DNA of 64,000 nt from Myxococcus stipitatus (GTDB lineage: Bacteria; Myxococcota; Myxococcia; Myxococcales; Myxococcaceae), in the NCBI RefSeq assembly GCF_021412625.1, contig NZ_JAKCFI010000005.1, positions 434,001 through 498,000 of the forward strand, given 5' to 3'. A program made the position numbers and the translations under genes. Numbering within the stretch: position 1 is the stretch's first letter; every line of letters starts with the position of its first letter. The notes under the pieces were generated by a model. That model saw only the letters and a list, made by a program, of their open reading frames with translations, ran no database searches and had not been told where the DNA came from. Positions 57,571 to 62,629 of this stretch are shown piece by piece.

Positions 57571-58464
57571 TCAGCTGACGACGGGCAGTGCGAAGCCCGT
57601 GGCCCCCTGGGTCGCGGGCTTCGTCACGCCCGCCGCCTCGTTCATGCGGCCGGAGCGGAACGGCTCCAGGTCCAACGCCACGAACTTGAACCCCAGCGAC
57701 AGGAACGCGGCGTTGATCCGCTGGCGCACGTCCGCGGACAGGAACCGCTCGTACTCCTCCGCCGCGACCTCCAGCCGGGCGACCTCGCCGTGGTAGCGCA
57801 CCCGGAACTGCCGGAAGCCCAGCTTGCGCAGCTCCGACTCCGCCGCGGCGATCTGCAGCAACCGGTCCCGCGTCACCGCCGTGCCATAGGGGATGCGCGA
57901 CGCCAGGCACGCCATCTGCGGCTTGTCCCACGTGGGCAGCCCGAGCGACTGGCTCCACGCGCGGATCTCCTCCTTCGTCAGCCCCGCCGCCGCCAGCGGC
58001 GACACCACCGCGTGCTCCCGCGCGGCCTTGTGCCCCGGCCGGTGATCCTTGAAGTCGTCCGCGTTGAAGCCGTCCAGCACCACCGCCAGCCCCAGCTCCT
58101 GGCGTCGGGCCTCGCACAGGTCGTACAGCTCCGTCTTGCAGAAGTAGCAGCGGTTGGTGGGGTTGGCCGCGTACTGCGGATTGGCCAGCTCGTTGCTGCT
58201 CACCACCACGTGCCGGGCCCCCAGCCGCTCCGCCAGCGCCCGGGCCTCCTCGGCCTCCTCCGGCGCCACCGAGGCCGACAGCGCCGTGAGCGCCAGCGCC
58301 CGCTCGCCCAGCTCCTCCACCGCCACCTTCAACACGAACGTCGAATCCACCCCGCCGGAGAACGCGACCAGCGCGCTGCCATGGGCCCGCAGCGCCGCGC
58401 GCATGGACTCCAGCTTCGGACGGGACGACTCACACAGGACCTGGATTCGCTCGGGGCTCAACAT
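57571..58464 (-). CDS. larE: LarE-type ATP-dependent sulfurtransferase
   Basis: A 297-residue PP-loop ATPase with SGGVDS at 36-41. LarE adenylates the nickel-pincer precursor of lactate racemase and supplies sulfur. Three cysteines are placed as in [4Fe-4S]-type LarE: Cys106 and Cys109 (RCYFC) and Cys186 (MACLASR), the last matching the sacrificial Cys of single-Cys enzymes. No larA, larB or larC gene is in the window, so it may serve another thiolation. AGGAG lies 7 nt before the ATG. It lies between an APS-kinase-like gene and a barrel gene, all on the minus strand. Confidence 0.9.
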   Translation of the reverse strand: MLSPERIQVLCESSRPKLESMRAALRAHGSALVAFSGGVDSTFVLKVAVEELGERALALTALSASVAPEEAEEARALAERLGARHVVVSSNELANPQYAANPTNRCYFCKTELYDLCEARRQELGLAVVLDGFNADDFKDHRPGHKAAREHAVVSPLAAAGLTKEEIRAWSQSLGLPTWDKPQMACLASRIPYGTAVTRDRLLQIAAAESELRKLGFRQFRVRYHGEVARLEVAAEEYERFLSADVRQRINAAFLSLGFKFVALDLEPFRSGRMNEAAGVTKPATQGATGFALPVVS

Positions 58465-58574: not shown

Positions 58575-59348
58575 TCAGCGCGCCTTGCGCTTCGCGGGCT
58601 TCTTGGCCGCCGCCGCCGGCTTCGCCACGCGGGCCGCCCGGGTCGCCGGACGCGCCTTCGCGCCCTTGTCCGTCTTGGCCGCCTTCGCGCCACCCGAGGC
58701 CTTCGGCGCCGCCTCCGCGCGCCGCGCCTTGGCGTCCGCCTTCTCCGCCTTCTCGCCCTTCTCCGGCAGCGGGTTGGCCTTCATCTTCTTGCCGGTGATG
58801 ATCTTCAGCTCCTCCGTCGACATGTAGCCGAGGTCGAGCAGGGACTGGAAGATCTTCGCCGCGCCCTCCTCCACGGACTCCACGTCAGAGTGGATCGTCA
58901 CCTCGGGCGACGTGGGCGGCTCGTACGGCTCCGTGATGCCGATGAAGTTGGGGATCTCCCCGTTGAGCGCCTTCTTGTAGCGGCCCGTGCTGTCGCGCTC
59001 GATGAGCTTCTCCGTGGGGCAGTCGACGTAGACCTCCACGTACCGGCCGATGCTGCGGCGGTTCTCCTCGCGCTTCGCCTTGTACGGGCTCACGCAGGGC
59101 ACCAGCGCCGCCACGCCGTTGCGGGTCAGCAGATTGGCCACGAACCCCAGGCGCCCCGCGATGGTGTTGCGCTCCTCCTTCGAGTCGCCCAGCCCCGCCC
59201 ACAGCTCATCCGCGAGGTCGCCCTCGTCGAGGATCTCCACATTGCGACCGACCTGCCGGAGCCGCGCCGCGATGTAGGCGGCGGTGGTGCTCTTCCCGGT
59301 ACCAGACATGCCGGTCAGCCAGAGGGTGAATCCAGTGTTGGAGGCCAT
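58575..59348 (-). CDS. APS-kinase-like protein with histone-H1-like tail
   Basis: A 257-residue protein. Residues 1 to about 185 match adenylylsulfate kinase (CysC): P-loop GMSGTGKST near 13-21 and the substrate segment GRYKKALNGEIPNFIG. The conserved DGDNVR motif reads DEGDLAD and the FISPYR motif reads CVSPYK, so APS binding may be altered. Residues about 195-257 are Lys/Ala/Arg-rich with AKK and KPA repeats, like histone H1 tails. Such a tail could bind nucleic acid; it is not part of the family. The ATG at 59348 is preferred. A good promoter lies 78-107 bp upstream, so it is transcribed separately from the sulfur-carrier operon. Confidence 0.87.
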   Translation of the reverse strand: MASNTGFTLWLTGMSGTGKSTTAAYIAARLRQVGRNVEILDEGDLADELWAGLGDSKEERNTIAGRLGFVANLLTRNGVAALVPCVSPYKAKREENRRSIGRYVEVYVDCPTEKLIERDSTGRYKKALNGEIPNFIGITEPYEPPTSPEVTIHSDVESVEEGAAKIFQSLLDLGYMSTEELKIITGKKMKANPLPEKGEKAEKADAKARRAEAAPKASGGAKAAKTDKGAKARPATRAARVAKPAAAAKKPAKRKAR

Positions 59349-59425
59349 AAGGGTTTTCAACTCCCTGCGCCCGGAGCGCTTCTTGCACGTCGCGTTGGGA
59401 CGCCGCAGATCCGAAGATGGCCGTG

Positions 59426-59507: not shown

Positions 59508-59969
59508 TCACTCGGCTTTTTCGTTCTTGAAATGGTCTTTTCCGACCCGTTGCGCTTGAAAATCTCCGTCCCGCCAGACGTACTCGGACACCGAGCTCAC
59601 ACAGCCTCGGTGTACGGATGCGATGAGGTAGGAAACGTCAGGCAGCAGTGGCTGCCCGTCTGGCGCAGCTAAATCACGGTCCGTCCGAGAAAAAGTCGCA
59701 GGTGCATCCACATGGGAGTGGAAGACGGACACGACCCGCTCTCCCCGCGTCTCGGCCTGCATGCAGAGCGCGAGCCACTCCTCGTCCGCGAAGGCGTACG
59801 CCGTGGCCGGGTGCGGGGAGGCGTTGCGCAGGGGGTGCACGCGCGAGTCACCCGTGGAGGCGGACAGGAGGATGACCCCGCATCCCTCCTCCGGGTAGGT
59901 CGCCTCGAGGTGTCGGAGGACCGCCTCGCGCACGGGCGCGGGCCAGCGTCCACCCGGCCACGGACTCAA
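59508..59969 (-). CDS. JAMM/MPN (Mec-like) metalloprotease
   Basis: A 153-residue zinc protease with the full JAMM signature: Glu28, His84-Ser-His86, Ser94 and Asp97 (HSH-x7-S-x2-D). In mycobacteria the homologous Mec removes cysteine from the CysO carrier after cysteine synthesis; JAMM enzymes also remove ubiquitin. The start is the TTG at 59969, which overlaps the previous stop and has AGGG 5 nt ahead; a GTG at 59999 is an alternative. It is the last gene of the five-gene sulfur-carrier operon and is expected to act on the Gly-Gly carrier. Confidence 0.9.
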   Translation of the reverse strand: MSPWPGGRWPAPVREAVLRHLEATYPEEGCGVILLSASTGDSRVHPLRNASPHPATAYAFADEEWLALCMQAETRGERVVSVFHSHVDAPATFSRTDRDLAAPDGQPLLPDVSYLIASVHRGCVSSVSEYVWRDGDFQAQRVGKDHFKNEKAE

Positions 59970-60607
59970 GGGGTCCCTGGCTCCACCTTCGAGGCGCACC
60001 GGTTGCAGCGACGCAGGGCCATGTCCTCCAGCGCGCCCGGGGCCATCAGCCACACGCCCCCCAGCGACGGCCCGAGCCCCAGCCGCAGCCGCTGGAAGAC
60101 GAGCGCGCCCAGCGCCCCCACGGCCACGCCCAGCGCGCCGTCGGGAGGCGAATCCAGGTGCCGCACCGTCTCCCCGAAGCACCAGAGACAGCCCTCGGGC
60201 CCGCGGTAGACGACGCCCGCGCGCATGCCATCACCACACAGGGCCACCCAGGGAGCCTCGCCGCTCCACGCCGTGGGCAGCTCCGCGACCAGCCCCTCGC
60301 CCCGCCCGGTGGGGGCCGCGTCCGGGTTCAGGGCCGGCACCTCGCGCGCCAGCGTCGTCGTCACCGGCTGGCCCACGTCCCGGGCCGCCACGAGGAAGCC
60401 CGGGGCCCACGGCCCCAGCGTCAACGTCCCCATCCCCGACACCGGCGTTCCCCCGCCCGCGAGGTACGCGGCCGCGGTCATCCCCGCCGCCCCCGTCGCG
60501 TCCACGCGCGCGCCCGCCGACAACAGGGCCTCCTGGCCCCGTCCCCCCACGTCCTTCAGGAGGATCTGCCGTGAATAGCGGAGGATCTGATCTTCACGCA
60601 GGGCCAT
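59966..60607 (-). CDS. Degenerate E1-like (ThiF/MoeB) protein with intact N-terminal arm
   Basis: A 213-residue protein with the E1 N-terminal arm REDQILRYSRQIL (Arg13 matches MoeB Arg14) and VGGRGQEALLSAGARV. The following nucleotide loop, GxGGLG in MoeB, reads GAAGMT, and the acidic and basic ATP-binding residues beyond it are not found. Two CxxC pairs (CLWC, CNRC) remain and could bind zinc. It starts 6 bp after the carrier stop and overlaps the JAMM gene. I infer that it cannot adenylate on its own but may complete the active site of the E1-like protein encoded at 61179-61958. Confidence 0.82.
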   Translation of the reverse strand: MALREDQILRYSRQILLKDVGGRGQEALLSAGARVDATGAAGMTAAAYLAGGGTPVSGMGTLTLGPWAPGFLVAARDVGQPVTTTLAREVPALNPDAAPTGRGEGLVAELPTAWSGEAPWVALCGDGMRAGVVYRGPEGCLWCFGETVRHLDSPPDGALGVAVGALGALVFQRLRLGLGPSLGGVWLMAPGALEDMALRRCNRCASKVEPGTP

Positions 60608-60613
60608 GGCGCC

Positions 60614-60886
60614 TCAGCCTCCCGCCATCGCGGGGATGAGGGTGAGCCGGTCCGCGTCTCGCACCGGCGTGTCCAGATCGGCCAGGGCCCGGATGTCCTC
60701 GTCGTTGAGGAAGACGTTCACGTAGCGCCGCACGGCGCCGCGCTCGTCCAGCAGGCGTGCCCCCAGGCCGGGGTAGCGCGCGTCCAGGTCCTTCAGCACC
60801 TCGCGCACGGTGGCGCCCATGGCCACCACCTCCGCCTGGTTCCGCGTCAGCGCGCGCATCGTCGTGGGAATGCGGATGGTCGCCAT
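60614..60886 (-). CDS. CysO/ThiS/MoaD-family sulfur carrier with Gly-Gly end
   Basis: A 90-residue ubiquitin-like protein ending PAMAGG. The segments RRYVNVFLNDEDIR and DADRLTLIPAMAGG closely match mycobacterial CysO (FVNIYVNDEDVR, SVTILPAVAGG), which carries a C-terminal thiocarboxylate as sulfur donor for cysteine synthesis. The E1-like enzyme in the same operon would activate its end and the JAMM protease would release the product. No cysM is present in the window. It lies 3 bp after the TusA-like gene and 6 bp before the degenerate E1-like gene. Confidence 0.92.
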   Translation of the reverse strand: MATIRIPTTMRALTRNQAEVVAMGATVREVLKDLDARYPGLGARLLDERGAVRRYVNVFLNDEDIRALADLDTPVRDADRLTLIPAMAGG

Positions 60887-60889
60887 GGC

Positions 60890-61189
60890 TCAGCGCCCCT
60901 GCTTGCGGAGCACCAGCCGGTGCGTCCCGTCCGGGCGGGCGTCGAGCGACACGACGACGTGTCCCTCCTCGCTCGCGTTGCGTGGCACGTTCTTCAACGG
61001 CTCCGTCCCCTTCAGGATGATCTCCAGCAGGGCCCCGGCCTCGAGCGACTCCAGCTTCAGCTTGGTGCGCACATAGGTCATGGGGCAGACCTCCCGGGTG
61101 ATGTCCAGCGTCGCGTCCACGGACGCCTCGGGCCCCGCGCCGTGTTCGGCGCCGTCACGGCCCGCCTTGTCGCCCTCGTCAGCGCGCAC
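60890..61189 (-). CDS. TusA-like sulfur-relay protein
   Basis: A 99-residue protein starting at GTG 61189 (GGAGG 6 nt upstream), overlapping the end of the E1-like gene by 11 bp. A short charged N-terminus leads to a TusA fold with DITREVCPMTYVRTKLKLES; the persulfide cysteine sits in CPMT, where TusA has CPxP. The ending GHVVVSLDARPDGTHRLVL fits the last strand. TusA proteins take sulfur from cysteine desulfurases and pass it on, so it is a likely sulfur donor to the carrier in this operon. Confidence 0.88.
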   Translation of the reverse strand: MRADEGDKAGRDGAEHGAGPEASVDATLDITREVCPMTYVRTKLKLESLEAGALLEIILKGTEPLKNVPRNASEEGHVVVSLDARPDGTHRLVLRKQGR

Positions 61190-61958
61190 AGGTCGCCTCC
61201 TCGCCCGCGCCTGCCGGGAAGGGCGGCACGTCTGTGACGAGACAGCCGGGACAGCCCTCCGCCCGGGTGACCCGCACGCGCCGCCCCGCCAGCGCCCCCG
61301 CGTCGAGCACGTGCAGCGTGGACTCGCCCGGAGCGCGCCGGGCGGCCCCCGCGAGCAGCTCCAGCGCCAGCAGCGCCTGCACCGCGCCCACCAACCCCGC
61401 GAGCGACCCGAGCACCCCGGCCTGCGCGCACGTGGGCACCGCGTCCGGCGGCGGGGGCGCCTCGTAGAGGCAGCGCAGACAGGGGCCACCGGGCTCCACC
61501 CGCATGGCCTGCCCCTGCATCCTCAGCACCCCGCCATAGACGAGCGGCACGCCGGTGAGCACCGCCACGTCCGACAGGAAGAACTTCGTCGCCACGCCGT
61601 CGGTCGCGTCGATGACGACGTCATGCGCGCGGAACAGGCCCTCGACGTTGTCCGCGTCCACGCGCTCGGGCACGACGTCCGTCGCGAGCGCGGGGAAGGC
61701 GCGCGCCAACCCCTCCGCCGCGGACTCCGCCTTGTTGCGCCCCACGTCGTCCGGCCGGTGCCACAGCTGGCGGGGGAGGTTCGTGACGTCCACCCGGTCC
61801 GGGTCCGCGAGCGTCAGGTGGCCGACACCCGCCTGCGCGAGCGCCAGCGACGCGGGACAGCCGAGCCCCCCTGCTCCCACCACGAGCACGCGGGCGCGCT
61901 CGATGCGGGAGGCCTGGGGGATGCGGGGGTGGTGGTGCTCTTCGTCGTGGCCGTGCAT
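61179..61958 (-). CDS. E1-like (ThiF/MoeB/MoeZ) adenylating enzyme lacking the N-terminal arm
   Basis: A 259-residue E1-like enzyme that should adenylate the carrier's C-terminal glycine. Nucleotide motif GAGGLG is at 28-33; LTLADPD, NLPRQ, GRNKAESA and VIDATD supply residues matching MoeB Asp62, Arg73, Lys86 and Asp130. A CxxC pair is seen near 170 (CLRC) and another near 240 (CPGC), with PTCAQAGVLG between. The arm that precedes GxGGLG in MoeB (RYNRQ) is missing: the protein starts MHGHDEEHHHPRIPQASR, a His-rich tail. There is no in-frame start upstream that would add it. It is the first gene of the operon. Confidence 0.92.
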   Translation of the reverse strand: MHGHDEEHHHPRIPQASRIERARVLVVGAGGLGCPASLALAQAGVGHLTLADPDRVDVTNLPRQLWHRPDDVGRNKAESAAEGLARAFPALATDVVPERVDADNVEGLFRAHDVVIDATDGVATKFFLSDVAVLTGVPLVYGGVLRMQGQAMRVEPGGPCLRCLYEAPPPPDAVPTCAQAGVLGSLAGLVGAVQALLALELLAGAARRAPGESTLHVLDAGALAGRRVRVTRAEGCPGCLVTDVPPFPAGAGEEATCAR

Positions 61959-62083
61959 CGGATTGCTGCTCCGCGGGGGCGGATGCGAATAACGTACGGT
62001 CCCCTGCGTCGCACCAGGCAACAGTCGGGCGCAGGTGCCCTTCCACCGTCCCGCTTCGCGGCGGACCCCACGTGCCAGGACAT

Positions 62084-62629
62084 ATGAGAAACCTGACCGG
62101 CGTGCTCGTCTTTTCCACCACCCTCCTGCTCGGAGCGGGCTGCCACAAGAACACCGGGGAGAGCTCCGGCCCGGCGGACGCATCGTCCTTCCCTCCCGGC
62201 GCCCAGACCGACGCCTCCCCTCCAGCCCCGCCCGAGGAGGCGCCCGCCGCCACGCCGGACGCCGCCGCCCCGCCCCTCGCCGAGGCCGCGCCCGTCGAAC
62301 CGCGGCCGACGAGCCCTCCTCCCACCCCCGACAAGGGCGCCCAGGAGCCCCCCGGCAAGAACACGGGCTCCCCCGACGCCGCCGCCACCGCAGGGACGAA
62401 GAAGGACAAGGACGCGGGCGTGGACGCCGCGACCCTCGAGTCCTGCGTGGACCGCTGGCTGAAGAAGAAGAACCTCGACGCCTACGGCCACCCGGAGGGC
62501 ACCATGTACGCGGGCGGCACGCCCCTGTTCGACGAGCGCACCGGCGAGTCCACGGACCGGCTGACGTACGTCTTCAACCAGCACCCGGAGGTCCGCAAGG
62601 CCTGCATGGCCCCCCCGCGTCACCGCTGA
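62084..62629 (+). CDS. Lipoprotein with Pro/Ala-rich linker
   Basis: A 181-residue protein with a signal peptide and lipobox ending at Cys20 (LLLGAGC). A long Pro/Ala/Thr-rich linker (about 25-110) is followed by a small charged domain with two cysteines (ESCVDRWLKKKNLDAYGHPEG). The linker would let the domain reach away from the membrane. No family is recognised. AGGA precedes the ATG; a GTG at 62072 is an alternative. It is divergent from the sulfur-carrier operon. Confidence 0.75.
   Translation: MRNLTGVLVFSTTLLLGAGCHKNTGESSGPADASSFPPGAQTDASPPAPPEEAPAATPDAAAPPLAEAAPVEPRPTSPPPTPDKGAQEPPGKNTGSPDAAATAGTKKDKDAGVDAATLESCVDRWLKKKNLDAYGHPEGTMYAGGTPLFDERTGESTDRLTYVFNQHPEVRKACMAPPRHR

Follow-up and report, generated by a model that had tools for sequence, protein, structure and literature searches.

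The question raised by this locus is why one operon should encode two proteins related to E1 enzymes, the activating enzymes of ubiquitin-like proteins, each of which lacks what the other has kept. The locus lies in a 64,000-nucleotide stretch of Myxococcus stipitatus (NCBI RefSeq assembly GCF_021412625.1, contig NZ_JAKCFI010000005.1, positions 434,001 to 498,000), hereafter the window, which belongs to contig 5 of a 10.1 Mb, high-GC genome. The first of the two proteins, A, retains the ATP site of MoeB and ThiF without their N-terminal arm; the second, B, retains the arm with the ATP site gone. To judge from their sequences and those of their relatives, A and B most probably form an obligate heterodimer with a single ATP site, that of A, in which the arm of B would be placed.

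In A, the glycine loop GAGGLG and the residues D52, N60, R63/Q64, K76 and D120 align with the nucleotide-site residues of MoeB. One ThiF domain spans residues 17-237, with a PF00899 score (Table 1) above the curated cut-off of 28.1 bits, and the cysteines comprise C160/C163/C236/C239, of zinc type, and C177. Comparison of 31 A proteins gave 25 invariant columns, among them those of the ATP residues and of three cysteines, with D52, D54, N60, R63, Q64, K76, D117 and D120 kept in all. About 22 residues precede the first strand of A in the window, and no RYxRQ motif is present among them. In the profile alignment, none of the 89 informative A rows of related operons has an aligned arm; 94 rows were first scored, two of which (L116 and L146) were excluded because they are MoeB-rhodanese proteins that have an arm and lie outside the operon, and three (L012, L044 and L094) end before the arm position and are uninformative. 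A looser motif scan flagged L089, in which AFTRA, preceding the loop by about 33 residues and unaligned to the arm, is taken as a chance match. An upstream start adding an arm to A was also considered and rejected: the in-frame ATG at 62183 falls within a divergent open reading frame (62072-62629), and relatives have no conserved upstream arm. Neither cysteine half-domains nor a ubiquitin-fold domain are found in A.

The protein B begins with MALREDQILRYSRQILL, carries GAAGMT at the loop position, and has lost the other ATP residues. Its PF00899 score is 19.3 bits, below the cut-off, and a profile built from B relatives still finds ThiF (8.9e-15). Across 91 B rows, in which genome G059 is counted twice, the equivalent of MoeB Arg14 is kept in 89, the Gly41 equivalent is most often A or P, and the K86 and D130 columns are gapped in 82 and 89 rows, respectively. 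In a comparison of 29 diverse B proteins, no columns are invariant except R10, R13, G21, G24 and Q25, all in the arm region. The ratio of nonsynonymous to synonymous substitution rates (dN/dS), calculated for 18 close B genes, is 0.09 for codons 1-32, 0.31 for codons 33-110 and 0.18 for the remainder, or 0.23 overall outside codons 1-32; these values indicate purifying selection on B that is most intense in the arm. In six loci (L113, L126, L145, L147, L144 and L139), B is just 88-123 aa long, as read in draft genomes, with the arm retained. The first-pass annotation, which had described one chain as retaining GAGGLG and MoeB-equivalent ATP residues without an arm and the other as retaining the arm with GAAGMT and no other ATP residues, was correct on both chains and their coordinates, and the relatives strengthen it; both reading frames lie on the minus strand.

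For comparison with ordinary E1-like proteins, related operons were fetched from relatives, and controls were taken from a scan with generic patterns that leave the arm out; its matches were mostly ordinary MoeB/ThiF, and rows were aligned to a profile of the controls. Among the matches listed, 76 of the 77 E1-like controls have the glycine loop and the equivalent of Arg14 on one chain. A and B together show the combination of an asymmetric E1, an active armless half and an inactive armed half, and the complementary loss, as read from these alignments, is more than chance.

The presence of the two genes is also coupled. The split operon occurs in eight families of the order (f1, f2, f4, f5, f6, f7, f8 and f9) and in two genomes outside it, tagged only as the same phylum (G121, locus L138, and G165, locus L153). 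Nine same-family genomes that are 99-100% complete (G044, G046, G047, G072-G074, G077, G079 and G090) have neither operon-type A nor operon-type B among the best first-look candidates, which alone were scored, and contain at most weaker E1-like matches. In G053, A lies at a contig end and B was not found; in G099, B lies at a contig end and the operon A was not found. The genomes with an armless B, G076 (L080) and G078 (L081), are the only two whose A has lost the equivalents of N70, R73 and D130, those of K86 and Q74 also being lost from A in one of them. No TusA match was found in the operon stretch of either genome; frames for the carrier, JAB, CysC and LarE are still present in both decayed operons. 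A single armed E1 adjoins TusA in G166 (L151), as expected of the unsplit form. Some loci encode natural fusions: A with TusA (L127), A with the carrier (L129), the carrier with B (L148) and B with JAB (L088 and L112). In L148 (2831-3745, plus strand), a fragmentary genome with a contig end nearby, the GG end of the carrier continues into B's arm in one open frame with no intervening stop; if this fusion is real, the carrier would need to be cut free, perhaps by JAB.

A fused analogue of the pair is found in Bacillota. A metagenome-assembled genome (MAG) named Sedimentibacter sp. encodes a single 465-aa protein (L205, 448-1842, plus strand) consisting of an armed half without a glycine loop followed by an armless active half, the same order as in UBA1, in which an inactive armed half precedes the active one. 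Within its family, 14 of the 27 genomes gave whole-length matches, which are uninterrupted in 13 and divided into two pieces of one frame in G213, and a draw of 291 genomes from the class gave four more by match extent. The loci besides L205 are L238-L253, together with L254, which is cut at a contig end. Each of the 16 that were fetched (12 from the family and four from the class draw) has a frame longer than 400 aa, whose first half contains Y-x-R and whose second half contains a single glycine loop; in the arm, Y is preceded by R in 11 of them and by H in five. Another 20 matches of the class draw, among them G399, which is cut by a contig end, span the active half only or little more. A careful tree grouped the fused active halves with MoeB-like controls, apart from the split A (96/90, with the bootstrap not settled), and the approximately unbiased (AU) test did not reject one clade of fusions and split A (p 0.194). 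A NifU-like gene lies near the fused gene in L205 and L253, and a cysteine-synthase-like gene adjoins it in L252 and L253.

Structure models were calculated for both forms. The AlphaFold2 (AF2) model of B has a mean predicted local distance difference test score (pLDDT) of 74.4 and a predicted template modelling score (pTM) of 0.74, with block means of 93-97 over the first 30 residues. Among its best 50 structure matches, the first is MoeB (1jw9_B; Z 15.0, root-mean-square deviation (rmsd) 3.6, 203 aligned residues), followed by ThiF and Uba4 and then by SAE1 (1y8q_C; Z 13.8, rmsd 3.4, 194 aligned) and APPBP1 (3dbh_A; Z 13.5, rmsd 3.6, 192 aligned); SAE2 and UBA3 are not among these 50, which excludes nothing. 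Yeast Tcd1 (9hmp_B) aligned with Z 10.6 and rmsd 3.8 over 168 residues. The model is compatible with a MoeB fold for B and is not proof of it. In the model of the fused protein L205, the active half is confident and matches MoeB (1jw9_B; Z 34.0, rmsd 1.8, 224 aligned), UBA3 (1tt5_D; Z 29.6) and SAE2 (3kyc_B; Z 28.0).

The first-pass annotation had proposed that the two chains share one active site as a heterodimer, and this proposal gains support from the complementary loss, the joint presence and absence, the coupled decay, the arm-focused selection and the fusions of Bacillota. The binding of A to B, the placement of the arm, nucleotide use, stoichiometry and the sulfur route are what we infer, as follows. 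The pair would derive from a MoeB-like homodimer. A would bind MgATP together with the GG-ending tail of the ubiquitin-like carrier encoded beside it, forming an acyl-adenylate, and B, without ATP binding, would pack on A through the ancestral dimer surface. The arm of B (Arg10/Arg13, RYSRQ) would thread into the ATP site of A, as happens with the arm of the other MoeB protomer and with that of the inactive half in the E1s for SUMO, NEDD8 and ubiquitin, giving one active site per A-B pair rather than two. The adenylate would then be converted to a thiocarboxylate, with sulfur arriving via TusA and a crossover-loop cysteine of A. In the ancestral operon, the thiocarboxylate may have served CysM-type cysteine synthesis, with JAB releasing cysteine from the carrier. 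A chemically essential role for Arg13 is clearly less certain than the heterodimer itself.

Several observations weigh against the heterodimer with a shared site, or against a catalytic arm. The sole control without an arm arginine in cis, among the matches listed, is an armless E1 with GAGGLG intact in the Bacillota MAG JA1.bin10 (L162, 1799-2695, plus strand); no motif of the RYxRQ or RYxRH type occurs in the 5.7 kb around it, and it possibly stands alone or has a partner encoded at a distance. The decay in G076 and G078 may be a single event, as the two share a genus code. The AF2 alignment for B consisted of 49 rows, mostly MoeB, which favours a MoeB fold, and the B half of the L205 model has low confidence, so that its dimer geometry is unreadable. 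Finally, the published work on Tcd1 (PMC13139853) reports that the arm arginine is non-essential in MoeB and ThiF and that Tcd1 R59A had no significant effect, because of which the catalytic role of the arm arginine may be weak.

The last of these findings leads to the alternative that survives best, although it is unlikely: the heterodimer would be real, with B acting as a fold-stabilising scaffold whose arm serves packing and whose Arg13 is not catalytic. It draws, besides the non-essential arginine of MoeB and ThiF, on the need of Tcd2 for Tcd1 for its stability (PMC13139853) and on the argument that APPBP1 is mainly a scaffold (PMC6031683, as excerpted). However, nearly all of B except the arm varies or is deleted in some lineage, and in the rows seen the arm is lost only where the ATP site of A is lost. 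It is much less probable that B serves the carrier, JAB or TusA as an adaptor without contact to A, and that A works alone or with the MoeB-rhodanese of the genome. The B-JAB and carrier-B fusions could be read in this way, and the same genome encodes a MoeB-like protein that has an arm and a further domain upstream (L001/L122); however, an adaptor leaves unexplained the loss of the arm from A where B exists, the conservation of the arm in B and the Bacillota fusions. That B is a functionless, decaying duplicate of A, as the loss of most of its E1 motifs might suggest, is scarcely credible given its dN/dS within and outside the arm, which contradicts a pseudogene, and its operon position, kept across several families of the phylum.

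The genes around the A/B pair, all on the minus strand, are collected in Table 1.

Table 1. Predicted products of the A/B operon in the window and the evidence for each.
Product	Position	Strand	Evidence and remarks
A, active armless E1/ThiF-like subunit, 259 aa	61179-61958	-	PF00899 208.2 bits; ATP-site residues kept in relatives
TusA/SirA-like sulfur carrier	60890-61189	-	PF01206 43.3 bits; GTG start (read from sequence) overlaps 3' end of A
Ubiquitin-like carrier, MoaD/ThiS/SAMP1-like, 90 aa, C-terminal AMAGG	60614-60886	-	PF02597 60 bits; NF041918 SAMP1 60.8 (cut-off 60)
B, degenerate E1 subunit with arm RYSRQ (Arg13), 213 aa	59966-60607	-	MoeB N-terminus match; AF2 model
JAB/JAMM metalloprotease	59508-59966	-	PF14464 68.5 bits; HSH...SxxD motif; start codon uncertain; touches stop of B
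CysC, adenosine 5'-phosphosulfate (APS) kinase	58575-59360	-	TIGR00455 163 bits (cut-off 138.7); gene order same in relatives
LarE-type ATP-dependent sulfur transferase	57571-58464	-	TIGR00268 319.6 bits (cut-off 150); gene order same in relatives

A GG-ending carrier, a JAB enzyme, an E1 and a sulfur donor are thus encoded within one operon. In the seven relatives that were inspected, B and JAB are separated by a cysteine-synthase-like gene; the best model for the two of these that were scanned was cysM, with 322.5 and 324 bits, below its cut-off of 394.2. Together, the operon parts and the cysM-like gene point to a putative pathway of cysteine synthesis of the CysO/CysM/Mec type. The gene cysM is absent from the operon of the window, and cysM-like genes elsewhere in the genome reach at best 282 bits, none above the cut-off. 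The profile search detected no carrier gene between TusA and B in several relatives, for example L088-L090 and L101-L109 except L103; these may encode the carrier at another site or have one that has diverged beyond the reach of the profile. LarE is a frequent operon neighbour in relatives; it may serve the nickel-pincer cofactor rather than carrier sulfur, because a LarC-type gene (PF01969) is present in the same genome. CysC carries about 80 additional C-terminal residues that are rich in Lys and Ala and resemble a histone-like tail. An anti-phage E1 system was considered and rejected, as PADLOC found nothing for B and, for A, no more than E1-E2 domain matches.

The eukaryotic E1s with one live and one dead half are usually explained as having started from bacterial homodimers. 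On balance, it seems somewhat probable that an asymmetric E1 also evolved in bacteria, at least once and perhaps twice, as a two-chain form in Myxococcota, whose dead half is eroding to an arm donor of 88-123 aa, and as a fused form in Bacillota. If true, both bacterial forms would have followed a course like that of eukaryotes, in which a MoeB-like homodimer gave rise to SAE/NAE and to UBA1. The step from homodimer to asymmetric enzyme appears to have been made in a living clade of bacteria; the excerpts of PMC12355090 and PMC6031683 name no bacterial intermediate for it, and the latter calls the question of single versus heterodimeric E1s a mystery. The stages occur side by side and include the single armed E1 that adjoins TusA (L151), dead halves of full and of half length, fusions and decayed forms, and these small proteins, with nearly all else lost, lend themselves to probing the purpose of the dead half and the role of the arm arginine.

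Among known systems, the MoeB and ThiF homodimers (so called in excerpts of PMC12355090) and Uba4, in which Arg18 of the second subunit acts in trans (PMC7527816, as excerpted), share with A/B the fold, the ATP residues and the arginine in trans. However, MoeB and ThiF are each encoded by one gene with both sites active, whereas A and B are two genes with complementary loss. In its kinds of parts, namely carrier, E1, JAB, SirA/TusA and APS kinase, together with a cysM-like gene in deep relatives, the operon resembles the CysO-MoeZ-CysM-Mec system of Mycobacterium (PMC3227635) and the operons of class 4e (ThiS/MoaD-JAB-E1-SirA-sulfate) described in Iyer 2006 (PMC1779556); in the excerpts of both descriptions, unlike in A/B, the E1-like protein is single and no split is mentioned. 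The yeast pair Tcd1-Tcd2, the dehydratase that forms cyclic N6-threonylcarbamoyladenosine (ct6A) in tRNA, is like A/B a ThiF-type pair with one dead site, and the dead chain Tcd1 gives the arginine finger Arg59 to Tcd2 and receives none in return (PMC13139853, as excerpted). In contrast to A/B, this pair is eukaryotic, acts on tRNA and has no ubiquitin-like carrier, and Tcd1 retains AMP binding and a full fold. With Tcd1-Tcd2 published, A/B is not the sole asymmetric ThiF-type pair outside the canonical E1s; no bacterial precedent for a split E1 was found in a search of openly licensed, published papers. The heterodimers SAE1-SAE2 and APPBP1-UBA3 and the single-chain UBA1 are like A/B in having an active half with the ATP site and an inactive half with a YxRQ-type arm; Arg57 of UBA1 belongs to the N-terminal inactive half. 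In UBA1, Arg57 and Arg515 hold the gamma-phosphate/sulfate position (PMC12355090, as excerpted). A/B differs from these eukaryotic enzymes in having neither cysteine half-domains nor a ubiquitin-fold domain, in a far smaller B, in belonging to a sulfur-carrier pathway, and in an operon in which no E2, a conjugating enzyme, was seen. A/B would thus work like the asymmetric E1s of eukaryotes without being a member of their family.

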